DNA of 64,000 nt from Apostichopus japonicus (Eukaryota > Echinodermata > Holothuroidea > Aspidochirotida > Stichopodidae), in assembly GCF_037975245.1 (NCBI RefSeq), contig NC_092570.1, positions 139,501 to 203,500 of the forward strand. The letters are read 5' to 3'. The position numbers and the translations under genes were made by a program. Shown one piece after another: positions 15,099-60,473 of this stretch. Position 1 is the first letter of the stretch. The number at the start of each line of letters is the position of its first letter. A model generated the notes under the pieces. It ran no database searches. It was not told where the DNA came from and was given only the letters and a program-made list of their open reading frames with translations.

Positions 15099-15153
15099 AT
15101 GGCTACCTTATCGGTGATCATCAAGTTCATCCTGTTGGCGGTTGGTATACAGG
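15099..15153 (+). CDS. Secreted Ig-like/C-type lectin/EGF protein, exon 1: signal peptide
   Basis: I reconstructed this eight-exon gene from splice sites, reading phase and domain order. Exons are 15099-15153, 17065-17373, 20162-20431, 25543-25692, 26360-26488, 28649-28768, 31158-31304 and 31966-32066; together 1281 nt and 426 residues. Exon 1 encodes MATLSVIIKFILLAVGIQ, a short hydrophobic signal peptide, and ends one base into a codon at GTGAGT. The product should be secreted: there is no transmembrane segment and a stop follows the last EGF module. The domain set recalls Tie-type receptor ectodomains (Ig plus EGF) with a lectin domain inserted, but no kinase is present. All seven introns are phase 1. 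Binding partner and role are unknown; innate recognition or angiopoietin-type signalling are guesses. Confidence 0.75.
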
Positions 15154-15514
15154 GTGAGTGGTTATTCAAGATCTCAGTGATATTTTTAAAGCGACTTTAA
15201 CGGAAGGTTATAGATTTTAACAAGTGGGCACAATAAAATCCAATGTGTTTGAATTTCAGTCTACCAGTGCTACGCTAGGTTGCATATATATGTAGCTGAA
15301 AGTCTATGAGCGAGTTTTACGGAATCGAACTCAGTCCGACTTAACCTTTCTAAATAATAATAATACTGATAATAATAATGGACATTTATAATTCGCCAGT
15401 ACCCGTCAAAAAAGACGTTCATGGCGCAGTGACACAAACAGTGCGACAGCAAAACAAAAAACAATAAACAAAGTACAAGACAAAAATGCAAGCAAAAATG
15501 GGCAACAGTGGACA

Positions 15515-16300
15515 ATTAATTAAACAGTTTTCATCAGATGAGTCTTGAGAGAGCGTTTAAAAGAAGCAAGAGATGGACTGTGTTTTACATGTTCCGGAAG
15601 ACTGTTCCACGGAAATGGGGCAGCAGCAGCAAAAGCTCTTTTGCCCCATGATCGATTTGAGCGATTTTCACACAGAAGTAATTTATTGTGTGATCTCATG
15701 AAATTGCGATTTGCGTGATATGGTTGCAGAAGTTCTGACAAGTAGAATGGCGAAGTTCTAACAAAAAATATTGGGATATATTCAAACTTAAAATTTATAT
15801 TTTAAATATCATTCGGTCTTTGATCGGGAGCCAGTGTAATTCTCTCAAATATGGTACCCAGATTCCGCACTTTTGTTGAGGTAGTTATGTTTGTGGTACC
15901 AATACGAAGGTGAGGAATTTTTACCTTTTCACGCTGCTGTCTTGATCCAAAAACAATGAATTCAGATTTGCCATCGTTTAATTTTAAGAAATTTTGCGTC
16001 ATCCAAAGTCCAATGTCATCAATGCATGATTCTAGGCGACGCAGTGTGTTAGTGGCCTCAACTTGATTTGGACTGAACGGAATGTAAAATTGTGAGTCAT
16101 CTGCATAGAAATGATATTGTACATCGTAGTTCTGAATATTTTGTCCGAGTGGGCCAGTGTATAAGGAAACAGCAACGGCCCAAGGACAGATCCCTGGGGT
16201 ACACCACCTTGGTTGGAGCTGAGCAATGATAATTAATTTTAACATATTGTGATCTGTCTGTGAGATATGATTGAAACCATTTCGAAAACTGTCTTATCAA
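15515..16300 (-). pseudogene. LINE (CR1/L2/jockey-type) reverse transcriptase remnant
   Basis: Minus-strand pieces in order: GVPQGSVLGPLLF (RT motif before the active site), then FYADDSQFYI (the YADD catalytic motif) with CIDDIGLWMTQNFLKLNDGK, then the C-terminal tail with GKRAFAAAAPFPWNSLPEHV and SFKRSLKTHL. These are classic non-LTR retrotransposon landmarks. Frameshifts separate them, so it is dead. It lies in intron 1 of the lectin-like gene, antisense to it. Confidence 0.88.
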
Positions 16301-16539
16301 AACTTCTCAGTCATTCGTTGCTCTTACTTTAGTTTACTTGAGTTTATTTTTTACTTTTATTGTTTTACATTGTAGTGTTATAATAGTACAACGTTAGTCC
16401 CTACTCTCTCTTGAATATTAACGTTTCGTTGATTTATTTATAAAACACTCAGATAATGTCATACACACACGTTCATTCACAAACAATACTGTCGATAATC
16501 AGTAGAAGAAAAATATGAAACCCTGCAACTTTGTTGTTT

Positions 16540-16830
16540 CATACCAAAAACACCTGCAAGTTGGTTGTTTCATACCTAACCACCTGCACCTTAGTTGTTT
16601 GATACCTAAACACCTGCACCTTGGTTGTTTGATACCTAAACACCTGCAAATTGGTTGTTTGATACCTAAATACCTGCAACTTGGTTGTTTGATACCTAAA
16701 CACCTGCAACTTGGTTGTTTGATACCTAAACACCTGCAACTTGGTTGTTTGATACCTAAGCGCCTGCAACTTGGTTGTTTGATACCTAAATACCTGCAAA
16801 TTGGTTGTTTGATACCTAAACGCCTGTTAT
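16540..16830 (+). repeat. 30-bp minisatellite
   Basis: About ten copies of the unit ACCTGCAACTTGGTTGTTTG followed by ATACCTAAAC. Because 30 is divisible by three and the unit lacks stops in several frames, open frames cross it on both strands. Confidence 0.92.
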
Positions 16831-17064
16831 TGTTTTTAAATGTACGCCGGAGTGCGGGAAATAGAGATAACAAGTTTTGCCTCAAAATACAAATTCTTAA
16901 ATAAATTACTGACCAGACCGTAATCGAAAGAACACTTTTTTTCGGGGTTCATGGGGTGAGGGTTTCGGTTGGGGAGTGGGTGGAATGGGTGACAATGTAC
17001 TAAACTTCTGCTTAATATCCATATGAAATCTTGATTTGACCTAACCCTTTTTCTAATTCCATAG

Positions 17065-17373
17065 CGTCGAAATTTTTTATTGTCACCAACAAAGCTGAAC
17101 TGGGACGCCATGCCGACCTACTCTTTATGTATGCAGTAACTTCTGACCCCACCGCACTAGGGACCATTAAAACATACAAGTCAGATGGCAAGTTTACAGT
17201 CAACGTGCAGAGTCAAAATCTCGTCAGAGCCAGGGATGATCTTCAATTCGGATGCTATCTGACTATTCGCTCTGGTGACAAACACCGCGGTAATCGGTAC
17301 GGTGTGTACCGGTGGACTGCCACGATTGGCGGTGCTGAAACGAGGATTAATTCCTTTGTGAAGCCTATAACAT
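17065..17373 (+). CDS. Lectin-like gene exon 2: unassigned extracellular domain
   Basis: Acceptor TTCTAATTCCATAG, donor GTAAGT after ACA T. The exon gives 103 residues, from ASKFFIVTNKAELGRH to INSFVKPIT, that complete the codon from exon 1 in phase. The segment looks all-beta (alternating hydrophobics, YGVYRWTATIGG near the end) and has a single cysteine (FGCYLTIRSG). Domain size and phase-1 borders match an Ig-like module, but the canonical two cysteines are absent and I cannot assign a family with confidence. Confidence 0.75.
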
Positions 17374-18002
17374 GTAAGTCACCGCAATAATTGAAAGCGA
17401 TGTGGTTCTGTATAACACTTATACATCCAGACAGAGTCCCGCCCAACACCACCCAACACCCAAAATAGAAATTCCAAGCAGTTTGCTTGAGAGAAAACAG
17501 TTTCTTCATGCACATTCCACCTCCTCCAATATATACAAAGAAATGAATTCCAGAAATAAAGCTATACAAGTATGACAATTCACTTCAAATATTTAAAAGA
17601 CGTTTATTATTTATTCAAAGCAAATTATATTTTATAATACTGTGCAGTAAAATCTAGTTGCACATTTTATTGATAGAAAGTTGTTTCGTATAGATGGACA
17701 AGTTCCGCTACACTCCTGAGTCCCAAACTGTACACTGATCAAGAGAGAGCAAGCATCCGTTTTCTATAATGAATAAGAAACCAGAGAGTATCAACAGACT
17801 CTTGACCATCATATCATCCAACGAAATGTATTTAATGAAGCAGCACCACCTTACCAGGAAGCACTCAAGAAGAGTACATACAACTATACCACATGAAATA
17901 TAATCCACCACTCCACAATAATAACAACCAAAGCAGAAAACGTAACAGAAAACGCCACATCACATGTTTAACCCACCATACAGCGACAATGTAGCATCAC
18001 AG

Positions 18003-18284
18003 CTTGGGAAGAAGTTCTTTAGTTTACTAGATAAATGTTTTCCACCTGGCACCACAAAAACATTGAACCACAACACCACCAAGATTACCAGCAGTTGTAT
18101 ATTCCCAACGTACACTAGATTAGCTCGCCCATAACAAATCTATTCTGAACATTGTACATCCCGCACAAGGCACACCAAACTGCAACTGCCGAAAAAGCAA
18201 ACCATGTCCTCTTGAAGGAAACTACCTATCATCCGGAGTAATATACCAAGTTATAGTAACAAGACGGGACATGTGCGTTAATCC
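18003..18284 (+). pseudogene. Penelope-like (GIY-YIG type) retroelement fragment
   Basis: Two overlapping frames encode FFSLLDKCFPPGTTKTLNHN, TTKITSSC and, after a frameshift, HNKSIL…NCNCRKSKPCPLEGNYLSSG followed by VIYQVIV. The order 'LIDKHFP…NRNTVKVSYSCMPN…HN…CNCR-x-K-x-x-CPL-x-G…VYQA-x-V' is the linker into the GIY-YIG nuclease of Penelope-like elements. Frame break and missing ends mark it as a relic. It sits in intron 2 of the lectin-like gene. Confidence 0.6.
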
Positions 18285-19112
18285 TGGGGGGGGGGGGGTG
18301 ACGGGGGACACGCCCCCACATTTCGATGGGTGGAGGACACACTATCAAATTCCCCCCCCCCCCCCACACACACACACATTTGTAAAAAGAGTAGTGTCGT
18401 GGCTCTGTTTGGTTAGGGCTTACACATCTCAGGAATCATAGAAATGTATTCTCGTAGATCTAGAAAAACATTTAAACTAACACAGTCCCATTGGAAGTGT
18501 CACGGGGGCATTACAAGTCATTGGTGGTTTAACATGCTGGTGTATGACGACTTTTGGCCAAATTTGCGCTAAGATCACTATACGAACTCGGATCTGGACT
18601 GTCCCTAATTAGTTAGTTATTTAAATTATTAATAATGGCGTATGGGGAAATGCACCATTTTGTGGTATGACTCCCAGGACGGCAAGTCGATAAACTCACA
18701 TGCAGTCGCGGCGGATAGCTTCCTTCGTCTATATGTCCGGGACATTTTGGAACATCTTTCTTATAGGCCTATATCTGAGGCCCTGGGGTCATTCCTTGAC
18801 CGACTTGGTGCAATATAATGTGTCCATTTCGAAGTAAATTTATTCACAGATTGTTAGTTGTCATGGGTTCGAACAAATTAGGGGATTCTATCCTGAAACA
18901 TAAGGCAAAATGGGGCTGGGGTTTCCAGTTCGCCGCATCATTTGTCAACTTGTACTGGGTTCTAATGTTCATATCAATTGGAATCACTAATAAAAGAAAT
19001 AATGCACCCAAAATTAAGGCCGAATGAAATTTATTGCATATTTCCTGAGTGACGAATTTGTAACTTTCTCCCGAAATCACGCAACTAGATGGTATTGACA
19101 TCTGAAATTTTC

Positions 19113-19165
19113 TTGCTACGCTGCGCGCCAACCGATGGTGGCGCTCCGCTTAGATAGTACTTACG
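19113..19165 (-). repeat. Solo copy of the transposon hairpin module
   Basis: The minus strand reads ACTATCTAAGCGGAGCGCCA then CCATCGGTTGGCGCGCAGCG. This is the module found inside the hAT-like elements, here without recognisable transposon ends. Confidence 0.7.
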
Positions 19166-19430
19166 GCCGGAGTACTCGAATCGATTACGTCCCCCTTACG
19201 TTTCAAATCGGATTGACCCCCTGAGACAGGATAATCAATTCTAAGCCAATATTTACATTAATTGATAGCAATGTACCATACGCCCTGACATGGAGAACCC
19301 ATGCACACAATAAACAATACTTGACAGCTAGTACAACTTGCCAGTGGTTGTAGGCACAGAAGAAAGCACCTGTTAAGTAACTTTAGATAAACTTTACTCA
19401 CCGATCTTTTGTTCCTTTTTATCCACACAT

Positions 19431-19917
19431 CCAGCTTTACTTAATCCACACATCCAGCTTTACTTAATCCACACATCTAGCTTAACTTAATCCACACATC
19501 CAGCTTAACTAAATCCACACATCCAGCTTTACTTAATCCATACATCCAGCTTAACTTAATCCACACATCCAGCTTTACTTAATCCACACATCCAGCTTAA
19601 CTTAATCCACACATCCAGCTTAACTTAATCCACACATCCAGCTTAACTAAATCCATACATCCAGCTTAACTTAATCCAACATCCAGCTTAACTTAATCCA
19701 CACATCCAGCTTAACTAAATCCATACATCCAGCTTAACTTAATCCAACATCCAGCTTAACTTAATCCACACATCCAGCTTTACTTAATCCACACATCTAG
19801 CTTAACTTAATCCACACATCTAGCTTAACTTAATCCACACATCCAGCTTAACTTAATCCACACATCCAGCTTAACTAAATCCATTCATCCAGCTTAACTT
19901 AATCCATACATCCAGCT
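19431..19917 (+). repeat. 22/23-bp minisatellite
   Basis: About 21 copies of AATCCACACATCCAGCTTAA plus CTT, with CTTTACTT, CATACATCC and one-base-short variants. It lies 245 bp before the acceptor of exon 3 of the lectin-like gene. Confidence 0.93.
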
Positions 19918-20161
19918 TGTGGCTTCATGTGGCTGGTAGCACGGTTACAGTATTTAACTTCTCAAGCTAAGTGAATATTTATCCTTGAAAGACGCTGGAT
20001 TCGGTTCAAATATAACCTCATATTAAAAGAAGATTATATCATTTTGAAAATCGCTTTCATAATTATGAACAATCTGAAAGTCCCTTACCTGTTTCTGTAC
20101 GTAACAGCCTAATTACCAAAATTATAACCTCATCTTCGCGTTCTATTCCTGTACTTTACAG

Positions 20162-20431
20162 CTCAATTAGCAACGGACGGTGTCTACACCATTGTAGTAT
20201 ACCCTGACACTACGGATCCAGCCAAACTCGAAAACCCACTAACCTTTGGTGTAAAGCCGTTTGGATCAAAGACGAAGATCAAATGGAAGAAAGGAAAAGC
20301 GAGACTAAGCAATACTGGGCCAACCTTGACATTAACAAACGTTAAAGGCAGTGCAGGTGTTTATGAAATCTACAGGAGGATGGAACGACGAGCAAGAGGC
20401 TGGGCAGTAAATATTGAGATCATAGTTTCAG
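20162..20431 (+). CDS. Lectin-like gene exon 3: cysteine-free Ig-like domain
   Basis: Acceptor TACTTTACAG, donor GTAAGT. Ninety residues follow in phase. Ig hallmarks are visible: a C-strand tryptophan (KIKWKKGK) and an F-strand-like run, TLTLTNVKGSAGVYEIYRR. In ordinary I-set domains that run ends D-x-G-x-Y-x-C; here it is A-G-V-Y-E, and the partner B-strand cysteine is missing too. The exon ends with a typical G-strand (WAVNIEIIVS). A cysteine-free Ig fold is unusual but known in extracellular proteins. Confidence 0.75.
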
Positions 20432-21189
20432 GTAAGTTTGTTGGCTGTTGCACGCAATGTTTGGACATGTTCTGATAGTACAGAAATGACGTGTGGCGCA
20501 AAGTAGGACAAAATGGAGAAGAGGGCAAAGTGTGGTAGGGCGGTAACGAAAATTGCAATCTACTGTGTATAGTATGTATGTATCGTGATCGATTTTACAG
20601 CTGTGTAAGTATGCTGCAGACAATTTATGACATGATTGGTGAGGTACATCTGTCTCTAAATAGGGAAGGTAACAAAACTGACATGGTTGCACAAAGCTTT
20701 TCGCAATAAACTGTAAAGTTATCTTTTTTCTATTTGTCACGTTTACACGGGTGCACAAATGTCAGTTATAGGCCTTCATATTATATTCACAGTATATGTA
20801 ATTGATTGTTCACAAATTGATATTGAGTATTCAAACATGAATAATTTATGACAGGCTAATTATAATAGAGTCTATTGAACTTAGTGAAACCACACCAGTG
20901 CTACGCCATTCATGAATTTAAAGAGAATCTTCATATATCACGTTCTACCAAGCTTTATACGTATGTAATAAATTAAGATTGGAAAACGGGAAATTATAAA
21001 CATTTTGAAGTTTTTTATCATTACAAGAATGGGATTAGACCGAAGGACAGTAAGACAAGAAGTCCTGTGTTCTTAACGAAATGAACTATTTAGCCCTTAG
21101 GTGAAGCGGTGATACATAGCAATTCAACACAGAAAACGCTCCAACTTTGTCGAAGAAATGACCAAGCTCAGATATACAATCACGGGGTT

Positions 21190-21345
21190 CAGGCGCGGCG
21201 GAACGGAAAAATTATTGGGGGGGGGGCTAATGTGTGGAGACTATCTAAGCGGAGCGCCACCATCGGTTGGCGCGGAGCGTACAAGAAAATTTTGGGTTTT
21301 TTCAAACCCCCAGATGGCCGGAAACGGCACTTCCCGAGTGTTTTA
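21190..21345 (+). mobile_element. MITE fragment with hairpin module
   Basis: Begins CAGGCGCGGCGGAACGG, runs through a G tract and the module ACTATCTAAGCGGAGCGCCA…TTGGCGCGGAGCGTACAAGA, and fades after GGCACTTCCCG. The right terminal repeat is not found. Confidence 0.6.
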
Positions 21346-21500
21346 TGCTGCGAATACCTGGCCCTAAAATATGGGTCTCAAGCCTGCAATTTCTCAGATT
21401 GCACGTAAAGTCTGTAAAAACATTGTAATTTGTATATTCGATCGTGTTTTAAGAGAGTAGCTATTACTCGTAGTGTACTCGCAAAGACGTTTTTGAGTGT

Positions 21501-21924
21501 AGTAACGGCAGTGGCGGAGCTAGGGGTATTGGCCGGGGGGGGGTAGCAAGAATGGTCTGTAGGGGCGCTTTCGACACTATCTAAGCGGAGCGCCACCACA
21601 GGTTGGCGCGGAGCGTACAGAAAATTGTTGTAAAAAGATACTCCCGAGATTGCAGGAAATGACCCTTTCCGGGGCCTTGCTAATTTGCAGATAAACGGAG
21701 AATAAATAGGTGTCGTCGCCATTTTGTCGGAAATTACACCGACAGAATATGACAAATGTTAATAGGTATATGAGAGCGCAATAAAATAGTCAAAAATCGC
21801 GAATAAGTAAAAAGTAGTGAAAAGCTGAAAAGGGCGCCAGCAGTCCATTTGAGTCCGTCAGGGGGGGGGGGGGCATCCGCCCCTGACTGTATATATGGAC
21901 GCTCGATCCACCACTAAGTAAGGG
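21501..21924. mobile_element. 408-bp hAT-type MITE with near-perfect 8-bp target duplication
   Basis: The element is about 21509-21916. It starts CAGTGGCGGAGC and ends GATCCACCACTA, an imperfect inverted repeat. It is flanked by AGTAACGG and AGTAAGGG (7 of 8 match). It carries the ACTATCTAAGCGGAGCGCCA module. A close relative lies at about 22935-23232. Confidence 0.7.
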
Positions 21925-22109
21925 GGTGTTGGAGAACTGGCTGAAATGAGGCAAGTCATTGGCCTAAGACGAAGTTGTGTTACGCTACCGGTACTCACAC
22001 TCACTGCTTCCACTTTTCACGGGACGTGAAGACGCGGTTGGGGTGACAATGTGGTCTATAGCCAAGGGACGGGCCGCGGGTCCCCAGCAATTACTAAAAT
22101 GATTACACC

Positions 22110-22279
22110 TATAGAGTATACATGTGCATCGGACAGATCGACAAGTATGCATTGAAAAATGGGCAGATGTACGTTTCGGAGCCTTGGTAAATATTGGGGG
22201 GGCTTATCATGCATTTGCCCCCTCAACTTTTTTATTGGGGGGGCTGAGCCCCCCAAGCCCCCCCGGTTCCGCCGCCACT
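22110..22279 (-). mobile_element. hAT-type MITE fragment
   Basis: Read on the minus strand it starts CAGTGGCGGCGGAACCGGGG, followed by a G/C-rich palindrome around GGGGGGCTGAGCCCCCC. The other end is not identified. Confidence 0.5.
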
Positions 22280-22934
22280 GACGGGGTTACATTCACGTTC
22301 AAGTTAACGTTAAACTGCAATGAGTTTTTCCACGTTTAGAAAGGGTGTTGTAGTACTAAACACTAAGGGATATGTTCAACCAATTTTCACTGGCTTGGAA
22401 TCCGTCAGAATTAATAACTCAATCCATAGAAGAAACCTAAACAAAACAGACAGTCGCAATTTTTTTAGGCAAAACAACTTTTCTATTGCCAATTAAGTGC
22501 ATGGATTTCAGCTCAAATATATGCATACAATACGGCCTCCGCAATGTAGCATAGGGCAAATTATGAGTGACATTCTGTTTTCCGAGCGTGGTGCGCACCG
22601 ATCAGCGTTTAAGAATTGTTATGCCTTTTAAGATAACAATGCATCAGGAGCCGCATACGATTATAGAGGGAAATATACGGTAGGTTTAGACTTTACTGTA
22701 TCACGCATTGTAAAGCATTGCAAATCTTTGTTGGTTGATAGTACTTATCACGCTTTGTATGTAGACTATCATGTTCGTCATCACACCTCCCCCTCACCTT
22801 CACTGCGGGGCTCGTTTGCGCATACACATGTTTGTTATGCCGGACATTCTTCATTTGTACCTTATGCATAATTTTTTATCATGGATAGGCTATGTAGCAG
22901 ACTTGCAAAGTACGAGACCAAGAATGATAAGTAC

Positions 22935-23232
22935 GAGTATCTGTGGTATGAGGGGTATTGGTCAGAAGGGGCGAGAATGGTCTGTAGGGGCGCTTTCGAC
23001 ACTATCTAAGCGGAGCGCCACCACAGGTTGGCGCGGAGCGTACAGAATTTTTTGAGTAAAGATACCAACAAAATGTGACAAATGCCATTAGGTATTTGAG
23101 AGCGCAATAAAAAGTCAATAATCGCGAATAAGTCAAAAGTGGTAAAAAGCTGAAAAGGGCGCCAGCAGTCCATTTGAGTCCGTCGGGGGGGGGGGGCATC
23201 CGCCCCATCTGACTATATGGACGCTCCGCCAC
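22935..23232. mobile_element. MITE related to the one at 21509-21916
   Basis: Shares GAATGGTCTGTAGGGGCGCT, the hairpin module, GCGCCAGCAGTCCATTTGAG and the end GGACGCTCCGCCACTTA with the neighbour 1.4 kb away, with an internal deletion relative to it. Confidence 0.65.
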
Positions 23233-23971
23233 TTATCTGTGGAGTTCCTTTGGGTATGAGCACGAGTTCAAGTCTGTTTGCGCTAGTACCGTATGTTAAC
23301 TTGCAAGAATGTTTGAGCTAGATTTCACCGAGTACAAAACGACAATGAAAAGTAATAAAGGCAATATGACATGATACGAGTACGGACTGACTCTGCTATA
23401 TCATGATGAGCCTATAGTGTTATGCACTATTTCAGACTCCCCATCTTTAACGGTCGTTTATTAGGTCGTTCTATATTCCAACTTATCCACCTTCGTCATC
23501 TTGGCGACCCGTCCAGTGTCTGATGTTCTTGATCTTATCAAGAGTGATTAGTTTCAAAATGGTGAAATATTTTGAAACTTTTGAATTACTTCATTTTCAA
23601 GACTTTTCTATCTTCCTTCAGCACAATTTGCCTTTTCTTCTGAATTTTTAAGCGACCCTAAAAAAGGGTCGCGATTTCCGCGTTGAATCCAATGGTATTA
23701 TATAACAGTTTATAAAGGTCGTTTTATTTTTAACCCTTATTTCTAGAATGTCCGAGAGGGCGATACTCCGCGCAGTCAAATAGTCCATGTAGTTCGTCGT
23801 GCCCAATAAGTTGTCGTAACGGAGGAGTCTGTGATACAACTGGTTTTTGCCTATGTCCACCATTTTTCATCGGTACATCATGTCAGTGGCGTAAGTATAT
23901 CGATCCTTTGACTAATTTCGGGCGATATGGGTACACTCGTCTTTTTTCCCACCTTGTACAAAATTCAAAAG

Positions 23972-24039
<68 letters not shown>

Positions 24040-24335
24040 GCAGTTATTTTTACGACGCTTAAGCGACCACAAATGTGGGAGACGCCCGCAAGGTTTATGG
24101 ATTACAACTTACACGTCGGGGTGGCTTCCAATTCAACATTTTAACTCAAATTTGGAATCTTTTCAATTTAGAAAACCATTTCAGATGGGAAAACCGTAGA
24201 TTGCTCTTGGATGAAAAACCCACCTTACTATGGCCCGGCCGGGAATCGAACCTCCCGATTGCTAAGCCTCATTGCTTCAAATGCCACCGCCTTTATCCAC
24301 ACTGCCACAGCACCGCGATAACGTTGTTACGCCAT
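23972..24335 (-). mobile_element. Full-length tRNA-derived SINE with (ATT)n tail
   Basis: On the minus strand the head resembles a tRNA, including box-B-like GGTTCGATTCC (about 24236-24246). The body follows with CCACATTTGTGGTCGCTTAA and ends in a (ATT)n tail (23972-24039 on the plus strand). The fragment at 4884-5040 is the same family. Confidence 0.72.
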
Positions 24336-24793
24336 TTCTTTTTGTGAGGGTTATGCTCCCAGACCCTCTTGTATATTGGCAGTCGGCTTTAACGATCACA
24401 ATGCCACGCCCCTCCTTTGTAAGATCCTGGAATCACGTGAATATATTTCCAGATACAGAACAGTGTATATGGAAGTATATCAACTCTTTTGGATATCTCG
24501 TGTCATGACTGCAGGCTCTGTATTGGGTGACCTTAAAGAGAGACGTTCTTTTCTTCAAATATTCTCCGTCAAACTAATCATCTTAGGAATATTCAAATGA
24601 GTCAAGATTGAAAGTTAAGTCGCTTGCCGCAACGAAAGATTATTCCTTAACCTGGGTTGTAACGAATGACACCATTTGGAGATCGGTTCAGCGTGTTGCT
24701 AACGGTAATTTGTACTTCAGTGTGAGCAGATTCTACAAATTCCCTTAGTCGAGCATGTCACGACACAAGTAGCTATAAACACAACCAGTTTAC

Positions 24794-25177
24794 CAGTGAC
24801 GTGCACATGGGGCGGGTGCCAAGCACCCCATCGTCAGTCGGGAGGGTGGAGACGGGTTGACTCGGGTGATATTTACATTCAGTCGGAGAGATTAAGACAA
24901 CTGCTACAAGTGTAAACCCTCCTTCTCAAACTCACAAAAAGGGTATTTATTAGCAATACCTAATTCATAGTCTAAATATGCCTCAGATGCACTATTAGAC
25001 AAACTTACATGGCAGTCGGCTTCAACAGCCCTATAAGGTCGCACCCGTTCTTTATGATACCCTAGATTTTCCTCTGGCCCAACCATAAAAGGTATGTTTA
25101 TTTCTAAATCAGTCGGAGGCGGGATTCTGAATTAGCCATGCACTCTCCCGACCTTTCAAATCCTGTGCACGCCACTG
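24794..25177. mobile_element. Probable hAT-type element
   Basis: Ends CAGTGACGTGCACA (24794) and TGTGCACGCCACTG (25177) are an inverted pair with one mismatch. The interior holds related inverted stretches (AGTCGGGAGGG and CACTCTCCCGACC). Clean target duplications are not visible. Confidence 0.55.
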
Positions 25178-25432
25178 ATGTTCGCCTATAGATTATCTTT
25201 CTTTTTTTTTTGCAACTTATATTTGTTGCACTTTTGATTCATGACGTGAATATTGCAAATCTTCTCTGCGCGAAACGTCTTCTCAAAACAATCAATACAT
25301 ACAATATTTTACAAATATAATAAACATAACATTATTGCTTTCTTCTTGTTCTTTACTTTTCAAAACAAAGTTTCATATTTTTAACGGCAGATGTGACTGA
25401 TGTGTCAAAATATTTCGGAGAAGAACGAACAT

Positions 25433-25548
25433 TAATTTGCATATTATGTCAATGTTACTCTCCTCTATTAATATTAAACAGCTAACATTTTTTTAATTTG
25501 CATATTATGTCAATGTTACTCTCCTCTATTAATATTAAACAGCTAACG
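25433..25548 (+). repeat. 55-bp tandem duplication of a splice acceptor
   Basis: Two near-identical copies (25433-25487 and 25494-25548) of a pyrimidine-rich stretch ending TTAATATTAAACAGCTAAC. Both contain the acceptor AG (25480-25481 and 25541-25542). Only the second gives an open frame into the lectin exon. Confidence 0.85.
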
Positions 25549-25692
25549 TTTGGACAAATCGCCCAAACACTAGAGACTTCTACTATATCAATCCGTTTGC
25601 CTTGACCTGGTCCGATGCACGCGCAGACTGCATAGCGATGGGTGGAGATTTGGCCACTATCACCAGTCAAAACGAAAACAGTTTCATCGTCG
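25543..25692 (+). CDS. Lectin-like gene exon 4: C-type lectin domain, N-terminal third
   Basis: Acceptor ATTAAACAG, donor GTAAGA. It encodes the first half of a C-type lectin fold: FYYINPF, then LTWSDARADCIAMGGDLATI and TSQNENSFIV, the classic W-x-x-A-x-x-x-C…G-G-x-L-A-x-I pattern. The cysteine is the first partner of the outer disulfide. The acceptor lies in the second copy of a 55-bp tandem duplication (25433-25487 and 25494-25548). Splicing to the upstream copy would add 61 nt and reach a stop. Confidence 0.88.
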
Positions 25693-26359
25693 GTAAGAAA
25701 ATATTCCCGTCTAAAGGCAATGAAGTGAATGTCAGTTGAGCATTAACCTATATGGAAAACCATTACGATGTGTCCCTATTGCTTTTTCTTTTGGGAAGGA
25801 AAAGGTATGACTTAAAATGCACCATTTGATGTCGTAACGTCTGCTTTTAGTGGGGGGGGGGGGCCCGGGAGGACCATGATCATCCTGATGGGAATCGGCT
25901 TGAAAGACTGCAGGCAATGACAGGCTGCTTTTTTCCAAACCCTACATTCGTCACTGGCCCGTTGATTCCATAATGGTTCACGCTCTTACATACATCAGTC
26001 GGGGGAAATTTTCAAGCTTGACCCTACCTTTGAAATACTGAGCATGTCGCTGCTCAACCTGTCTGGATGTCGGGAGGAGCGATGGGAGTGAGGGACTGAC
26101 AAAGGAGAGCAACTTCTTTTCTCTATGGAGCAAATATGGTAACTCAGTCTCGGTTTGAATAATTTTGTGACCCAGATATTTTACGTCACCGAACACTTAT
26201 CCCTACCCTTCTTCAGACACGTTACACGATAATGAGAACCAGTGTCTTAATTGAAATCAACATAAAAAGATACTTTCAGACTCATCAGACACGTTTCACA
26301 CGATAATGATTAAAACTTGCCATCGGTTTTCTCCCTGCATGTTATGACTTCTCGTTAAG

Positions 26360-26488
26360 GTCTTCTGGACAATTGGGCTGATGTATCTTCGTCACTTTTA
26401 ATATTCATTGGACTCAGTTACAATCCAAGTGAAACCAGTTTTCAGTGGGTTAGCGGTGAAGCACTATCCTATACCAACTGGTTGTCAG
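26360..26488 (+). CDS. Lectin-like gene exon 5: C-type lectin domain, central part
   Basis: Acceptor CTTCTCGTTAAG, donor GTAAGT. Residues GLLDNWADVSSS lead into LLIFIGLSYNPSETSFQWVS and then GEALSYTNWLS. FIGL is the family's WIGL motif with W to F, and F-x-W-V-S-G-E-x-L-x-Y-x-N-W is the usual loop-region lead-in. After NW, calcium-binding lectins have an E-P-N or Q-P-D motif; here the next exon starts GPVN, so the calcium and sugar ligands are missing. Confidence 0.88.
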
Positions 26489-28648
26489 GTAAGTATCAAC
26501 TTATATATAAGGTGGGCGGCGTTATAGACAAGAAAGAAAATAAATCACATATTTCGTAAAGAAGATTGCAGTGGTTTCTCGTGCTCCCATTGGATGAAAT
26601 CGACGCCTAGTGTGCCATGAGTCCTGAAATCAATATATGTCAAATTAAATGACAAATGCCGGTTTCTCGTGCTCTCATTGGACACTAGTGTCACATGTTG
26701 TTTTCTAGCGCTCTGGTTGGAAGAAATCGACATAATTTGAAAAAAATCGAGATATGTCGAAGTAAATTGTCACATGTCGCTTTTCGTGCCATGATTAAGT
26801 TATATACGCACATTCATAGGCCTCAGAATCCAAGCAGTTGAAATGAGAATACTTAAACGTTATGTTGACAACGTTGTTTTCATAACGATATGCATAAATG
26901 CAAACATTTGAATCCCAGACCATGGAAGAACTAGCAAAAATGACCAACAGTATCTTTATATGCATTTTAATTGGTTGTTTAAGTATTTCTATCTTTGCAG
27001 GCTTAGGATGCCTTATCCGGAAATCATTACTCTTGGCAATGCCAATATACTCTTATATAGCTAGGCTTGAATCGTCATTAACATATGTACTGAAACTGAC
27101 ACATGTCGATTTAATTCGACATATGTCGATTTCAGGACTTATGGCACGTTAGGCGCACCATAGACGGAAGACCTCCAAACCTTGCAGATCATGGGATAAC
27201 ATTTCTAGTTCGGTGTACCTTGCATAGCTGCGTGCACCATGATACCACCACTGTCCGCATGAGGAAATAACAGCTAATAAATGTTTGTCTACAAAATTTC
27301 CATATCTGCAAGACCTGTTGCAAAAATTGCCCCAAAAGCTATCAGTTAACAATACACAAAATTAGCTCCCTATCATTACGAATGCAGGTAAATGTAGGTC
27401 ATTACAATCAATGATATCAACATTTAGCTTGTTGTGGATCTCAACAATATTTTAAAGGTGATTAACTACAGAAACATTAAGAGCGTTCAAATATTTCTTT
27501 CTTTCTTCCTTTTTTGTCTGTGAGAGTCAAAAATTCTGCCTAAAGTCATCATGTTTAAGTGTTGCAAAATCCGCACTAGCCTGATAGCGCATGGCTGTTG
27601 TCATTAACATTATTATAGGTAATTTTGATCCCCCCCACCCAACCAAAAGTGCCTGAAATCAGATAATGGTCACAGATGTTCAGATTTTCAGTAAGCAATA
27701 GTATTGCAACCCATTGCATTTTACCTGAGCGCTCAGAAACTTTAATATCTCACTGAACACTTCTCAAAATTCTGGGGTGGGGAGGCAGGGGTAGGAGCGG
27801 GGGGGGCACTGGGGAGCGTCCCTCACTTTTTCCAAAATAGCAAAATGTGCCCTACTGGCAAATAAAATGTGCCCCTTTGATGAAGAACTGTCTTTTGGAT
27901 ATCCTAAGCCTTTGTTAATTTTAATATTTTATTTGAATTATTTACTTCTAGTCTGTGCATTCTATTTTTAAAATGACATCCCATATCTTTTTGTAGCAAC
28001 CTCAATAAATAGTATTGATAGCATACTAACACATCATATATGTTTAAGTAATATGGCTGGTGTGTATATCAGTTTATAGCATATATAACGAGTGGTGGAT
28101 GTGGAATGAGAAAGTGCCCCTCTGATGTTGCGCCCCCACACTTTGTGGAAGCTTCCTACCCCCCGGGGGAAGGAAGGGGGTCTTGGGTGGCGTGGGGAAA
28201 TTCTACTAATTCGACGATGAAAAAGGAAAACTTACTACATTACTACATGTTAACACACACATAATGTATTATATGAATGGCCTAATATATGATGGCTTTA
28301 GCGAACTCATTTTTCGAGCATGACAAAAAGGGTTCAATTTCAGTGAACTTGGTATTTTATGCAAAATTTTCCTCTGGCATAAAAAAATCCAGCCGAAACG
28401 AAAAGAAGAAGGGGGGGGGTGGTTAATTATAGTTGACCATTGTTTTCACGTAAGTAAACATAGCCCAAATCCTCCAATTGCCCCTTAGTGATGACAACTT
28501 ATGAAACAGCAATACCAATTCATATAGTAACTTTTGCAGCCCATGCTTGTTGTATATGGAAGTTACATGAAAGTTTTAACGAGTGTATTTTCCTATATTT
28601 AATGATCTACAGATGAATTCTTTCCATCCATTATCTTATATTTCAAAG
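26489..28648 (+). other. Intron 5 of the lectin-like gene
   Basis: Contains TCGATTTAAAT-type units (26630-26770, 27085-27135, including a perfect ATTCGACATATGTCGA palindrome-like stretch). There is no exon with splice sites and compatible phase, and no other gene. Confidence 0.6.
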
Positions 28649-28768
28649 GTCCAGTGAACGCACGACCTCGGGTAGCTATTTTTTCAAGTGGCGTTAATAT
28701 AGGTAAATGGTTCAACGCCGCGGACGCCTTAAGCTTGCCTTATATCTGCGAGGCGCAAAATGTCGATG
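28649..28768 (+). CDS. Lectin-like gene exon 6: C-type lectin domain, C-terminal part
   Basis: Acceptor TTTCAAAG, donor GTAAGT. Residues run PVNARPRVAIFSSG, NIGKWFNAADALSLPYICEA, QNVD. The terminal YICEA supplies the second cysteine of the outer disulfide. The inner disulfide is gone: the 'E-D-C' position reads PRV and the 'W-N-D-x-x-C' position reads WFNAADAL. Both inner cysteines are missing together, which argues for a stable loss rather than sequence decay. Confidence 0.87.
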
Positions 28769-28846
28769 GTAAGTATTAAAAATGATGGTTCTACATCATA
28801 TCACATCACATCAAGTCACATCACACCAAGTCACGTCACGTCACAT

Positions 28847-30543
28847 CATTTCATTTTCATTTCATTTCATTTATTTCGTCTATACATAAGAACAATAGAA
28901 CAAAGTGGTATAGTATAAACAGGACACTAGAAAAACAATAGTAGTTTATCGAGCTAGCGACCAAAAATAACCACAAAAAAAAAACAAAGAAAGAAGGTAA
29001 CAATTAAGAGTAGAGATAAATAAATAAGGGGTTAATCAACGGTTTAGTGTGCGTTACTCACAGGATTAATGCACGATCGGGGGATAATGCAAGCGATGCA
29101 CGAGGGCGGAGCCCGAGTGCATCCAGCGATAGCATTAACACCCGGAGTGCATTAATCATGTGAGTAACGCACGCTAGACCGTTGATTAACCCCGTTCATT
29201 CATATACTACCATTTGTGGAGGGGAAAAATCATAAAACAAAACATTTTTGGTTACATATAACCAAAGATTTATTAAAGTGATGCCCCGTAATTTTGCCGT
29301 GCGTTACTCACAGGATTAACCACACGGTCAGCTGACCTGAATGGACCAATAGGATTTAGGAATCTTTACTAAGTATGAATGAACATGAGATAATCAATAC
29401 TCAGTCAGGGAAGTTTTCAATTAGGTGGGCTTAGTTTCGCTCAAACGTTACATAAGATTTAACAGTTTTTATATCATTTGGAAGCACTTTCCAGGTTTTA
29501 TAGCAGTAGTTGTTCAAGAGTAATTTACCGTGTTTCGAGTGATGTCTGCTAACAGAAAAATGGGTATTATTCCTCGTACTGTTACGAACATACGCGGGAT
29601 TACAGGGATTAACAATATCACTAAAGACACGGGGAGAATATTGTTGATATACTTATAAATAAAAGAACACATCTTGAGAACATGAATGTCGCTGACCTTA
29701 AGAATACCAAGGTCTTTGTGCAAAGTACTGGTAGGATAACGTCGATGTTTAAAAGTAATGGTTTTTTACATTCTATTTTGGAGGATTTGTAGAGGCTTAA
29801 GTATGGTAGCTTTAGCCATGCCATAAATTTCAGCACCGTAAGAAATCTTAGAACAAACCAGTGAATAGTAAAGCTGAATAGCTACAGAGGGAGTGAGCGA
29901 ATCCCTGAGGCGATAGAAAATGCCATTACAAAGGTCATCAATATGTTGCTTGAATGACAATTTATCATCAATCATAAGGCCAAGATAATTGACGCAATCT
30001 GTTTTACAAATATTAGTATTATTCAATACAAAATGCTTTGGACACGAATGAGAAACATTATCTTTGGCATGAAAAATAGTAAAGTTAGCTTTCCCAAGAT
30101 GCAAGGTAAGTCTGTTCGCATCAAACCATTTTTTGAGACTGCTTAACGTTGATTGTGCTTTAAGCACGATATTGGTACAGTTTTTGTCGTGGACAAAAAC
30201 GTTTGTGTCATCAGCAAAAAGTCTTAAGGATTCGTCAGGTACAACATTTTTAATATCGTTTACATAGATTAAGAATAACAGCGGTCCTAAAACAGATCCC
30301 TGTGGCACACCGATATTAACATTGGAACACGTAGAATAAGTACTGTTAACATACATCAATTGCTTCCTGTTAGATAAGTAACTATGCATAACATCGAAAG
30401 CTTTACCTCGAATACTGTATAACTTGGCAAGGAGAATTTTGTGGTCGACAGTGTCAAAGGCTTTCTTGAGATCTAGATAAAGACCCAACACATTCTCACC
30501 ATTATCTAGATAAATACGAATACAATTTGTAGTCTCTAAAAGG
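28847..30543 (-). pseudogene. Jockey/CR1-type LINE, 3' half with (AAATG)n tail
   Basis: The longest frame (minus, 30543 to 29766) encodes LGLYLDLKKAFDTVDHKILL, then IGVPQGSVLGPLLFLIYVND, then the catalytic LRLFADDTNVFV and the downstream NYLGLMIDDKLSFKQHI. These are RT palm motifs in order. C-terminal pieces follow at 29500-29800 in shifted frames. The 3' end shows (AAATG)n-like repeats (28847-28880). It is 5'-truncated, antisense in intron 6 of the lectin-like gene, and flanked on both sides by CATCAAGTCACATCA simple repeats (28796-28845, 30546-30650), so it probably landed inside that repeat. A hairpin element (29028-29385) interrupts its 3' part. Confidence 0.9.
29028..29385. mobile_element. 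Hairpin MITE inserted in the LINE
   Basis: GGGGTTAATCAACGGT…GTGCGTTACTCACAGGATTA at 29028-29070 is mirrored by TAATCATGTGAGTAACGCAC…CGTTGATTAACCCC at 29151-29193. A second half has ends GTTCATTCATA and TATGAATGAAC (29194-29204, 29374-29384) and repeats GCGTTACTCACAGGATTAA. The LINE sequence resumes after it. Confidence 0.65.
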
Positions 30544-30724
30544 GCATGACATCAAGTCACATCATGTGACATCACATCCTATCACAACACATCAAGTAAC
30601 ATCATTTCACAGCACATCAAGTAATATCAAATTACATCAAATCTCATGGGATTTAATTCAGGTGTAAAGGATTGTCCATGCTTCTGGTACCCTATAGCAT
30701 TTAGCGACTTCAGTTTTACCAAGG

Positions 30725-30900
30725 GACGGAACACTATAGAGGTCATTATCGGAAGTTGCAGAAAGCTTCCACTAGATTAATTGTTCATAAGAATTTCTTT
30801 TCACATAGAGTTGTTATCGAATGAAATAATTGACTGAGTCAGTTGGCCTTTCTAAAAGTGCCAATGATTTAACGTTAGTTAGATGTTTTTTGTTAGATTT
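30725..30900 (+). pseudogene. LINE C-terminal fragment
   Basis: Plus strand encodes RGHYRKLQKASTRLIVHKNF, FSHRVVIE, then stops where the family has 'WN-x-LP'. This is the conserved C-terminal end of CR1-type reverse transcriptases. It explains why the apparent open frame at 30661-30780 is not an exon of the lectin-like gene. Confidence 0.7.
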
Positions 30901-31157
30901 GAGGTTCCTGTTTTCAGTGCTTCTTCATACGGTCCTTGATGGGGACTTTACGTCCCTCCTGATCCTTTTCTTTCTACTTAACAAAAGCAAACGAAAATAA
31001 GATTTCACATCACACCACGTTATAGTTTCTTTCCAATGAGCAAAAAATAATTAAGAAATGTGTTGTCATGTTATTCCAACACCGTACACGCTAAGTCTAC
31101 AACTCGCCTGTCCCTTCAGACCACCGTAGCAACATCCGGGTTTTACCTTTCTCATAG

Positions 31158-31304
31158 ATCCTTACTTCATTGATGGGGACAACAAAATTACATGCAGCGA
31201 CTTGCCCTGGGGGAACCATGATTGTAAAGGCTACCATTTCTGCTTTGGCGATCTTTATGGTTGTAGTTGTGCCAGCGGTTGGCATGGCAACGCTTGCGAT
31301 AAAA
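31158..31304 (+). CDS. Lectin-like gene exon 7: first EGF-like module
   Basis: Acceptor TTTCTCATAG, donor GTAAGT after AAA A. Forty-nine residues, from DPYFIDGDNKITCSDL to SGWHGNACDK, carry six cysteines in EGF spacing, with C-x-C-A-S-G-W-H-G-N-A-C at the end. It joins exon 6 directly in phase 1 (NVD then D). Confidence 0.85.
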
Positions 31305-31965
31305 GTAAGTATATTTATGTGATTTACTAAAACTATAAATATATCAAAATACTCGGACTGAAGGTACAAAATCCCAAATCTCAGTCTGAATTCAAGATGG
31401 CATAACTATTGACAACTTGTCCTTTATTTATCAATTTATCATTCTAATTATCGATTTTCAAACTTATCGCATTCTGTCGATTAGTAGGCCTTTACAAATT
31501 AAACTCCATTTAGGGAATAACGTATTTTCTTCAAAATCATGAAAGTGACATATTTTTTCCCCGCTGTAGCCATGGCTCTGCATATAAACTCTCTTACTGC
31601 CTGGCTCCTCAAATAACTCAGGACAGGTTTCTGTGTCTTTGATCCAACATTCATAGCTAATTTTAAATCTAGCCTAAGGCCTGTCTATTTTTATATAGCT
31701 TTTGTTGATTACTTGTAATATCTTTGTACAGCGCAGTTGATTTTTTTTTGCATTACTGGCGCTTTATAAGTGGTCTACTATACTATATTCCTTTAATATT
31801 GCGTGTAGTTAATAATGAAATCACAGAGGTACATCGGTTGAGAACTTTTTGTTCAGAACGATTAAAGTCGTTAAGTATAAGCCGATAATTGAGTCACAAA
31901 GTTAAAAATACTAATGCAGAAAGATAAAGATGGAACGTTCTTTCTAATTAACTTTTCGTTTACAG

Positions 31966-32066
31966 AGTGCAGAAAGGGATTTTATGGCCCAGGATGTGCT
32001 CTGAGTTGTATTACAGACAGCGGTTGTTCGGGAAAAGATTGTGATCGCTTCTCTGGACGCTGTTGA
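31966..32066 (+). CDS. Lectin-like gene exon 8: second EGF-like module and stop
   Basis: Acceptor TTCGTTTACAG. It completes a lysine codon and reads KCRKGFYGPGCALSCITDSG and on to CDRFSGRC, then TGA. Six cysteines with G-F-Y-G-P-G-C resemble the laminin-type/Tie-type EGF repeats. The stop directly after the last cysteine implies a secreted protein. A possible polyadenylation signal, ATTAAA, lies at 32106-32111. Confidence 0.85.
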
Positions 32067-32460
32067 TCTTCGGTAACCTTAATATTGTCTCTACTACGAC
32101 AGGATATTAAATTTTCAACTGAATTCAAGTCGTTTAATGTATTTGTTGTTGTTGCATGAGACGTATAAGAGGCTTTTTGATCAGGGGCAATTTTGTTACT
32201 GGCTTGGAAGAGAATGGGCCACAAAAAGGAAGGCCCTAGGGGCGGGGGGGGGGAGGGGTTCAGTGGGCGAAGCTCCTGGAAGCTGCCAGCATCATTTTCA
32301 GATAGTTTATACTCTTTTATCAATTTTCAAGAACCAAAATATATGTCAGAAAGAGAAATTACTCTAAAAGCCATTTTGGGGGCAACTTATTTGATGTTTT
32401 AATCCAGCGTGCTAAATATATGTTATACCATATATCATAAGCAATATAACAAGTTACACA

Positions 32461-34071: not shown

Positions 34072-34369
34072 GTATCTCTATATAGTATCTCTTTCGAGAT
34101 CCGGCTTTAGGAATCACAAATGATTTTCGAGCTGGTTAGCATCATGTTTGATCTCTAGAGTAAGTCAAAATATGTCACCAAAAACAGAACTAGTATTGTT
34201 CGATACAAGTGACAAACGCCTACAGTGGAATTGCGATCTTCCTTACCGTTTTCGAACCTCTGGACATACAATCAGCGTCCATAGCCTAGTGGTTAGGGTG
34301 TCCGCGTACAGAGCGGAAGGCCCGTGGTTCGAATCCCGGTGGAGGCTGAAAGTTTTTTCACTGTTCTGG

Positions 34370-35898: not shown

Positions 35899-38148
35899 AC
35901 ATTACTGGAATAGACCTTGGCATGGAGCAAAAGCTTGTAGCAAGTCAGGGAAGTTAACATTACTGGAATAGACCTCGGCATGGAGCAAAAGCTTGTAGCA
36001 AGTCAGGGAAGTTAACATTACTGGAATAGACCTTGGCATGGAGCAAAAGCTTGTAGCAAGTCAGAGAAGTTAACATTACTGGAATAGACCTTGGCATGGA
36101 GCAAAAGCTTGTAGCAAGTCAGGGAAGTTAACATTACTGGAATAGACCTCGGCATGGAGCAAAAGCTTGTAGCAAGTCAGGGAAGTTAACATTACTGGAA
36201 TAGACCTTGGCATGGAGCAAAAGATGGAGCAAGTCAGAGAAGTTAACATTACTGGAATAGACCTCGGCATGGAGCAAAAGATGGAGCAAGTCAGGGAAGT
36301 TAACATTACTGGAATAGACCTTGGCATGGAGCAAAAGCTTGTAGCAAGTCAGGGAAGTTAACATTACTGGAATAGACCTCGGCATGGAGCAAAAGCTTGT
36401 AGCAAGTCAGGGAAGTTAACATTACTGGAATAGACCTTGGCATGGAGCAAAAGATGGAGCAAGTCAGAGAAGTTAACATTACTGGAATAGACCTCGGCAT
36501 GGAGCAAAAGATGGAGCAAGTCAGGGAAGTTAACATTACTGGAATAGACCTTGGCATGGAGCAAAAGCTTGTAGCAAGTCAGGGAAGTTAACATTACTGG
36601 AATAGACCTTGGCATGGAGCAAAAGATGGAGCAAGTCAGGGAAGTTAACATTACTGGAATAGACCTCGGCATGGAGCAAAAGATGGAGCAAGTCAGGGAA
36701 GTTAACATTACTGGAATAGACCTCGGCATGGAGCAAAAGCTTGTAGCAAGTCAGAGAAGTTAACATTACTGGAATAGACCTTGGCATGGAGCAAAAGATG
36801 GAGCAAGTCAGGGAAGTTAACATTACTGGAATAGACCTCGGCATGGAGCAAAAGATGGAGCAAGTCAGGGAAGTTAACATTACTGGAATAGACCTCGGCA
36901 TGGAGCAAAAGCTTGTAGCAAGTCAGAGAAGTTAACATTACTGGAATAGACCTTGGCATGGAGCAAAAGCTTGTAGCAAGTCAGAGAAGTTAACATTACT
37001 GGAATAGACCTTGGCATGGAGCAAAAGCTTGTAGCAAGTCAGAGAAGTTAACATTACTGGAATAGACCTTGGCATGGAGCAAAAGATGGAGCAAGTCAGG
37101 GAAGTTAACATTACTGGAATAGACCTTGGCATGGAGCAAAAGCTTGTAGCAAGTCAGAGAAGTTAACATTACTGGAATAGACCTTGGCATGGAGCAAAAG
37201 CTTGTAGCAAGTCAGAGAAGTTAACATTACTGGAATAGACCTTGGCATGGAGCAAAAGATGGAGCAAGTCAGGGAAGTTAACATTACTGGAATAGACCTC
37301 GGCATGGAGCAAAAGCTTGTAGCAAGTCAGGGAAGTTAACATTACTGGAATAGACCTCGGCATGGAGCAAAAGATGGAGCAAGTCAGGGAAGTTAACATT
37401 ACTGGAATAGACCTTGGCATGGAGCAAAAGCTTGTAGCAAGTCAGAGAAGTTAACATTACTGGAATAGACCTCGGCATGGAGCAAAAGATGGAGCAAGTC
37501 AGGGAAGTTAACATTACTGGAATAGACCTCGGCATGGAGCAAAAGCTTGTAGCAAGTCAGGGAAGTTAACATTACTGGAATAGACCTTGGCATGGAGCAA
37601 AAGATGGAGCAAGTCAGGGAAGTTAACATTACTGGAATAGACCTTGGCATGGAGCAAAAGCTTGTAGCAAGTCAGGGAAGTTAACATTACTGGAATAGAC
37701 CTTGGCATGGAGCAAAAGCTTGTAGCAAGTCAGGGAAGTTAACATTACTGGAATAGACCTCGGCATGGAGCAAAAGCTTGTAGCAAGTCAGAGAAGTTAA
37801 CATTACTGGAATAGACCTTGGCATGGAGCAAAAGATGGAGCAAGTCAGGGAAGTTAACATTACTGGAATAGACCTCGGCATGGAGCAAAAGCTTGTAGCA
37901 AGTCAGGGAAGTTAACATTACTGGAATAGACCTTGGCATGGAGCAAAAGCTTGTAGCAAGTCAGAGAAGTTAACATTACTGGAATAGACCTTGGCATGGA
38001 GCAAAAGATGGAGCAAGTCAGGGAAGTTAACATTACTGGAATAGACCTCGGCATGGAGCAAAAGCTTGTAGCAAGTCAGAGAAGTTAACATTACTGGAAT
38101 AGACCTTGGCATGGAGCAAAAGCTTGTAGCAAGTCAGGGAAGTTAACA
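35899..38148. repeat. 57/58-bp minisatellite, 39 units, with higher-order structure
   Basis: Unit: ACATTACTGGAATAGACCTT, GGCATGGAGCAAAAGCTTGT, AGCAAGTCAGGGAAGTTA. Three sites vary almost as binary characters: AAAAGCTTGTAGC (58 bp) or AAAAGATGGAGC (57 bp); CCTTGG or CCTCGG; CAGGGAAG or CAGAGAAG. I count 39 units. Four-unit blocks repeat exactly (units 4-7 equal 8-11, period 230 bp), and later three-unit blocks (period 173 bp) dominate. Open minus-strand frames (peptide MPRSIPVMLTSLTC) are by-products of the unit length. Confidence 0.95.
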
Positions 38149-39329: not shown

Positions 39330-39640
39330 ATATATATACAATTACAGAAACTCCAGAACATGAAGAAACTTCCAGCCTCCACCGAGATTCGAATCCGGGC
39401 CTCCCGTTTTATATGCGGACACCCTAACCACTAGGCTATGGGCGTTGATTGTATGTCAAGAGGTTCGAAACTGGTAAGGAAGGTCGTAATTCCACAGAAT
39501 TAAGGCGTTTTCACCTGTATCGAACAATACTAGTTCTGTTTTGGTGACATATTTGCATTACTCTAGAGATCAAACATGATTCTAACCAAATCGAGATCAT
39601 TTGAGATTCCTAAAGCCGGATCTCGAAAGAGATACTTTGA
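39330..39640 (-). mobile_element. tRNA-derived SINE, inverted copy of the one at 34072-34437
   Basis: Carries the reverse complement of the tRNA-like head (CCACCGAGATTCGAATCCGG…CACTAGGCTATGG) and of the leader with GTATCGAACAATACTAGTTC. It ends in GCCGGATCTCGAAAGAGATAC, shared with 34090-34110. Confidence 0.7.
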
Positions 39641-49641: not shown

Positions 49642-49674
49642 CTAGGAAAATGAATGGTGATAATACAATTGAAT

Positions 49675-60416: not shown

Positions 60417-60473
60417 CTCATTGGCTTTGTGTGGAAGGTGTCCAGCCTGCGATACCAGAGAATCCTCCTCCTG
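60417..60473 (+). CDS. TAF6: TAF6 coding exon 4
   Basis: Acceptor CAACTTTACAG, donor GTAAGT. 57 nt, starting inside an alanine codon: AHWLCVEGVQPAIPENPPP. The A-H-W-L…E-G-x-Q-P-A-I-P-E-N-P-P motif is a family signature. Confidence 0.95.

Follow-up and report, generated by a model that had tools for sequence, protein, structure and literature searches.

The window analysed here is a 64,000-nucleotide stretch of the genome of the sea cucumber Apostichopus japonicus (contig C10, positions 139501-203500), and the genome searched along with it comprises 671,581,487 bases in 35 contigs. The plus strand of the window carries a nine-exon gene, referred to below as the C10 gene, in which all eight introns are phase 1 and have GT-AG borders. 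Its open frame of 1425 nt runs from a start codon at 15099 to a TGA stop codon at 32064-32066. Joining the exons gives a product of 474 residues with a precursor mass of about 52 kDa and the module order Ig-Ig-EGF1-CTLD (C-type lectin-like domain)-EGF2-EGF3, with EGF3 incomplete. Since kinase and membrane parts were looked for and not found, the gene is, judging from its sequence, not a Tie receptor; its place is in a truncated family derived from Tie, as the member with a lectin-like domain. Its parts, in window coordinates, are the following.

15099-15153, + strand: exon 1, start codon followed by a hydrophobic N-terminus resembling a signal peptide, ending in phase 1
17065-17373, + strand: exon 2, Ig-like module 1, corresponding in position to Tie Ig1, with a single cysteine, Cys82
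20162-20431, + strand: exon 3, Ig-like module 2 at the position of Tie Ig2
23747-23890, + strand: exon 4, EGF1 with eight cysteines, phase 1 at both ends
25432-25547, + strand: exact 55-bp duplication (25432-25486 and 25493-25547) giving two copies of the exon 5 acceptor
25543-25692, + strand: exon 5, lectin-like domain part 1 (Lectin_C match, lectin profile)
26360-26488, + strand: exon 6, lectin-like domain part 2 (Lectin_C match)
28649-28768, + strand: exon 7, lectin-like domain part 3, lacking the WND motif (Lectin_C match)
31158-31304, + strand: exon 8, six-cysteine EGF2 of Tie type, lacking Cys1 and Cys3 of Tie2 EGF2
31966-32066, + strand: exon 9, Tie-type EGF3, TGA after the sixth cysteine
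32106-32111, + strand: ATTAAA, possible polyadenylation signal 40 bases 3' of the stop

The original prediction described eight exons and a protein of 426 residues. All eight exist and together give exactly those 426 residues, but the exon at 23747-23890 had been missed. The seven introns it noted are phase 1, as it said. Its domain order (two Ig-like modules, a lectin domain, two EGF modules) was wrong: EGF1 precedes the lectin-like domain, and EGF2 and EGF3 follow it. Splice sites were ranked with approximate matrices; by this measure the donors are among the best 0.1-5.8% of GT dinucleotides in the whole window and the acceptors among the best 0.4-10.4% of AG dinucleotides, the weakest acceptors being those of exons 5, 6 and 7. 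If the upstream copy of the exon 5 acceptor were used, the frame would close after 21 residues. Because all introns are phase 1, exons 5-7 could be skipped in frame, leaving 341 residues.

The Tie-type part of the protein is clearest at its C-terminal end. Against 177,635 PDB sequences, Tie2 is the sole match of EGF2-EGF3 (exons 8-9) at E<=0.01, with a best value of 6.9e-14 and three distinct sequences, which argues for a Tie ectodomain into which a lectin-like domain has been set, after EGF1 and before EGF2. The end of exon 3 together with exon 4 is collinear with the Ig2-EGF1 junction of Tie2 (PDB, E 0.0014). The N-terminal block of a Tie receptor, Ig1-Ig2-EGF1-EGF2-EGF3, thus appears to be present in the order found in the Tie2/TEK (angiopoietin-1 receptor) ectodomain, again with an incomplete EGF3. 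Compared with Tie2, the sea cucumber gene adds the lectin-like domain, cuts EGF3 off, and has no Ig3, FN3, membrane or kinase part that could be found. The series of exons is more than chance: exons 2, 3, 4, 8 and 9 have diverged counterparts in the same order elsewhere in the genome.

Exons 5-7 encode the inserted domain. Pfam's Lectin_C matched the joined protein with an E-value of 7.4e-13 (49.6 bits against a cut-off of 22.6; residues 280-387), and with the exclusive Tie2 match of exons 8-9 this bears out the idea of a Tie-type ectodomain carrying a lectin insert. Mannose-receptor-type proteins are among the closest PDB chains of exons 5-7. The domain thus shares its Lectin_C profile and PDB matches with the mannose-receptor group, but it differs from that group in having only two cysteines (the second disulfide is absent), no sugar-binding motifs and Tie-type neighbours. 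In C-type lectins, EPN/QPD and WND are the motifs of calcium-dependent sugar binding. Both are absent here, PVN and WFN standing near the equivalent places as read from the sequence, and ordinary sugar binding is therefore unlikely. The 474-residue protein has 23 cysteines: eight in EGF1, six in EGF2, six in EGF3, two in the lectin-like domain and one in exon 2. Laminin-type EGF modules pair their cysteines 1-3, 2-4, 5-6 and 7-8. As the losses in EGF2 and EGF3 take out whole pairs, Cys82 of exon 2 is left without an obvious partner.

No continuation into a receptor was detected downstream. Translation past the exon 9 stop does not complete the EGF module, and the N-terminus is the sole strongly hydrophobic stretch of the joined product. 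From 32067 to 64000 on the plus strand, a Pfam scan in three frames with X at stops found no kinase match, and the same type of scan detected the kinase exons of the Tie gene on contig C2 in all three frames. DUF5641 (about 34.6-34.9 kb) and TAF6 were the only Pfam families found on that strand up to the window end. No Ig3, FN3 or membrane part was seen, the frame stopping inside EGF3 without a second strongly hydrophobic stretch, with the caveat that the frame scan is weak for single lectin exons (exon 5: E 0.012) and that lone FN3 or membrane exons would escape it. The expectation of a protein without membrane anchor or kinase agrees with these results.

A Tie gene proper probably lies on contig C2. 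A human TEK kinase domain query matched five exons there with 48-74% identity (C2:2537857-2541397, - strand); the top E-values in the search went to other kinases. EGF1 and an eight-cysteine EGF2 are found 0.9 kb apart, 20 kb upstream of the five-exon set on the same strand. These two EGF modules match Tie2 over their full length at 1.4e-25, the next protein following at 9.8e-10. The assignment as a Tie gene is thus based on the five kinase exon matches and the EGF match, not on a tree, and we infer that the EGF and kinase exons, 20 kb apart, belong to one gene. The C2 gene shares Tie-type EGF1 and EGF2 with the C10 gene. It differs in having kinase exons and an eight-cysteine EGF2 and in having no lectin exon between EGF1 and EGF2, as searched with the lectin profile described below. 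A second Tie-like kinase exon set (four exons, 43-72% identity, C2:2484227-2487504, + strand) is situated about 50 kb from the first, on the opposite strand. In sea urchin, SpTie1/2 appears as a table entry with a citation in the available text of PMC12113024, where it is reported in coelomocytes.

Relatives of the C10 gene are numerous. A protein search of the genome listed 90 exon matches, of which eight belong to the gene itself and five are lectin-only; the other 77 form 39 clusters at a gap of six kb, a rough clustering. Three of the 39 contain EGF1 only (C2 at 2.56, 27.66 and 27.69 Mb) and the pair on C16, at 5.61 and 5.63 Mb, probably represents a single gene, so that 35 clusters remain after removals. 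Among the matches listed, 29 of the 35 have an Ig2-type plus an EGF2-type match. Searching again with a C16 paralogue as the query added five further clusters (C1 at 2.28, 2.30 and 4.07 Mb, C22 at 7.94 Mb, C16 at 10.37 Mb) and a few fragments with Ig1 only. The matches listed thus suggest roughly 40 truncated Tie-like loci, fragments included, with members on contigs C16, C12, C3, C21, C1, C2 and C11. A weak Ig1-like match also lies within a 1792-residue open frame (C16:13248608-13248841, - strand).

The paralogues have Ig1, Ig2, EGF1, EGF2 and EGF3-type exons, a six-cysteine EGF2 and an early EGF3 stop in common with the C10 gene, which differs from them in its lectin-like domain and in retaining six EGF3 cysteines. 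In one C16 gene read exon by exon, Ig1, Ig2 and EGF2 are bounded by phase 1 on both sides and EGF1 and EGF3 start in phase 1; the middle 4.2 kb between this gene and its convergent neighbour contains no Pfam domain in six frames. All eight EGF3-type exons read start in phase 1, and their frames end 4-14 residues past the DRF.G/NRF.G motif. The C10 frame stops two residues after it. The six EGF2 cysteines are invariant across 11 aligned sequences. By sequence, then, the C10 gene has the family's EGF2 without Cys1 and Cys3, followed by an early-stopping EGF3. However, in the family EGF1 is directly followed by EGF2, and in the C10 gene three lectin exons lie between them. Near-identical paralogue exons had too few differences for selection analysis (10 comparisons).

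Identity between the EGF modules of the C10 gene and those of the closest family members in the comparison is 34-69%. In a tree of EGF1-EGF2 pairs rooted with the Tie gene, the C10 gene was placed outside the other truncated genes with a support of 83; the tree has 16 rows, covers 14 of the 17 loci with both EGF modules (L034, L045 and L046 are left out) and uses few sites, and its outgroup branch is very long. Besides the Tie gene, only the cluster on C12 at 27.37 Mb is near a listed kinase match (<100 kb), which lies 18 kb away on the other strand. The kinase list holds the best 139 of 1266 candidates and the family-model lectin list the best 150 of 392, and absence from either is therefore only suggestive. 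Distances were tabulated for 77 of the 90 exon matches and, with near-duplicates removed, for some of the lectin and kinase matches.

Among the family loci read, the C10 gene is the sole member with a lectin insert. The gap between EGF1 and EGF2 measures 255-1221 bp in the 17 paralogue loci that have both, being at most 555 bp in 11 of them and 656-1221 bp in the other six. As a query made of the gene's own domain is blind to diverged lectin domains, these gaps were searched with a profile of eight lectin domains from the A. japonicus genome. The profile detected its positive control at 1.8e-7 and the C10 gene at 5.6e-4, and found nothing in any of the 17 gaps (best value 6.4) or in that of the C2 Tie gene. 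Used as the sole query, the lectin-like domain gave 24 genome matches at E<=0.1 (all 52 candidates scored), three of them in its own gene. Of the 21 matches outside it, the strongest has an E-value of 2.8e-4 with 34% identity, identity is at most 42% in all of them, and the smallest distance to a Tie-like cluster is 0.43 Mb, on C1. In the listed family-model lectin matches this distance is about 0.10 Mb, again on C1 (2.40 Mb, against the cluster at 2.30 Mb that the C16 paralogue query added). Recent capture of the domain from a close copy was ruled against, there being no outside match above 42% identity and none adjacent. Insertion on an old side branch and loss in the other members both fit the data. 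In the open literature, subscription papers and supplementary tables lying outside the search, neither a lectin-bearing Tie-like protein nor a secreted echinoderm Tie family was found.

Reverse transcriptase fragments lie within the C10 gene in intron 1 (15805-16293, - strand, scoring under Pfam's cut-off) and in intron 7 (29769-30551, - strand). A short recurrent repeat, GGAGCGCCACCA followed by TTGGCGCG, was noticed by eye in introns and flanks at about 21250, 21585, 23010, 32590 and 33280. Further downstream are a tRNA-Cys gene (34274-34348, + strand), a tandem array at about 35900-38100 whose repeated reading frames point to a unit of about 58 bp, and a weak tRNA match (39374-39443, - strand). 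C2H2 zinc-finger reading frames occupy 50009-51244 on the minus strand, with weaker fingers at 49178-49765 (- strand), and exons of a TAF6 gene (TAF histone-fold and TAF6_C) are found at 57506-63614 on the plus strand. A tblastn search of 50 kb upstream and 40 kb downstream of the window gave three chance-level matches and no Tie-like exon, which speaks against a Tie-like tandem array at this site.

What the protein does can be proposed from its architecture. The predicted signal peptide would release it into the body fluid. In the available text of PMC8560823, angiopoietins 1 and 2 are bound by Ig2 of Tie2 through their fibrinogen-like domains, and by analogy the Ig2-like module may retain binding to a fibrinogen-like domain. 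Lacking kinase and anchor, the protein would then trap fibrinogen-related proteins, angiopoietin-like or other, in solution or serve as their cofactor; the lectin-like domain would probably provide a second, calcium-independent surface for protein binding or spacing. Soluble Tie2 offers a parallel: as far as the accessible part of PMC5473842 goes, it binds angiopoietin and blocks it strongly as a dimer, and Cys82 could let the C10 product form such a dimer. Shed soluble Tie2 and the predicted product are alike in being soluble ectodomains. The soluble form here is gene-encoded, whereas that of Tie2 comes from proteolysis (PMC5473842, same portion). Fibrinogen domains, the putative partners, are very numerous in the genome, with at least 169 matches (best 150 of 2728 candidates scored); the exon matches listed are mostly on C9. 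We give a probability of about 55% to the proposal that the C10 gene encodes a soluble Tie ectodomain which binds fibrinogen-domain proteins as a trap or cofactor.

Several results weigh against this proposal. Exon 2 alone has no PDB match at E<=10, and exon 3 alone has two chance-level ones at that threshold. Single-sequence AlphaFold models, made without an alignment, reached a pLDDT of 53 for exon 2 and 60 for exon 3. As there is no significant structural match, a conserved ligand surface on exons 2-3 is unsupported. EGF1 (exon 4) is nearer to WIF1 repeats (6.9e-7) than to Tie2 (0.0014) in the PDB, and EGF1-EGF2 of one paralogue is slightly nearer to Notch (1e-5) than to Tie2 (1.9e-5). Two of the eight paralogue EGF3 exons (L036 and L041) have possible splice donors before the stop, so that truncation at these loci is not certain. 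Finally, monomeric soluble Tie2 blocks angiopoietin poorly, according to the same portion of PMC5473842. A profile of seven exon 3 sequences gave 11 PDB matches, the best being phage Hoc (E 0.025), followed by eight isoforms of one Dscam (E about 1) and two plasmepsin entries (1.4-1.5); the matched regions of Hoc and Dscam we take to be Ig domains. Pfam showed no Ig family in the joined C10 product, and a Pfam check of three joined proteins gave none either. With sequence, profile and AlphaFold support for exons 2-3 this weak, the Ig label, also given by the original prediction, comes mainly from position relative to Tie2.

Other explanations were weighed against the soluble binder. A ligand role, also offered by the original prediction, is favoured by nothing in the analysis. 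It is possible, if rather unlikely, that the secreted Tie-like family, with the C10 gene among its members, binds microbes or damaged cells directly as immune recognition molecules, the lectin-like domain being the recognition part and no Tie or fibrinogen-domain signalling role being involved. The family is multicopy, clustered and diverged; an excerpt of PMC11244903 lists a TIE1-annotated transcript among the top genes of a holothurian coelomocyte cluster, together with mucins and a ficolin, and the coelomocyte report of sea urchin Tie1/2 (PMC12113024, available text) points the same way. However, the TIE1 annotation may denote the kinase receptor, and the lectin-like domain lacks EPN/QPD, WND and the second disulfide. 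It is improbable that exons 5-7 are part of a different transcript, so that there would be two genes, or are left out in splicing, with a main product of 341 residues. The phase-1 introns would allow this, the paralogues do without lectin exons, and the exon 5-7 acceptors are the weakest of the gene, but the lectin block was not seen to have a separate start, signal peptide or stop, and its open ends are in phase with exons 4 and 8.

A decaying or unexpressed Tie copy whose exons are open by chance is a still less probable explanation. The cut-off EGF3, the odd cysteine, the weak exon 5-7 acceptors and the retroelement fragments in introns 1 and 7 are what a pseudogene could look like, yet 1425 nt remain open across nine exons with GT-AG throughout, despite an EGF identity to the nearest relatives of only 34-69%. 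In addition, the missing EGF2 cysteines were lost as a would-be pair, and diverged paralogues are similarly truncated. The Tie homology of EGF2-EGF3 might finally be read as that of a full receptor continuing into membrane and kinase exons. This is disfavoured to the point of being extremely improbable: the stop is followed by ATTAAA, the plus strand is free of kinase matches to the window end under a working positive control, and the next features are a zinc-finger frame on the other strand and TAF6.

The soluble binder remains the preferred explanation of the C10 gene, which presents a receptor ectodomain that has become a family of predicted soluble proteins encoded by genes of their own, with the true receptor and uninserted relatives available for comparison in the same genome. 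It is also one case of a whole lectin-like domain being placed between two EGF modules via phase-1 introns. In the available part of the 2017 A. japonicus genome paper (PMC5638244), fibrinogen-related proteins are the most expanded family, and 'tyrosine-protein kinase receptor' is also among the expanded families. The reported receptor expansion may consist of truncated Tie-like genes, true kinases or both. Multicopy kinase-domain clusters are listed on C17 (13.2-13.6 Mb), C18 (8.7-14.3 Mb), C19 (8.8-9.1 Mb) and C21 (13.3-13.5 Mb), and these are a possible source of it. As a wider and only tentative suggestion, the secreted Tie-derived family and the fibrinogen-related expansion could together make up a body-fluid network of soluble ligands and binders in immunity or regeneration, with the C10 gene as its lectin member and part of the 2017 expansion being non-kinase. 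If this were true, the published reading of a kinase-receptor expansion in A. japonicus would need a second look. And should the family's proteins indeed bind fibrinogen-related ones, animals noted for immunity and organ regeneration would have in them a soluble regulator of a new kind.

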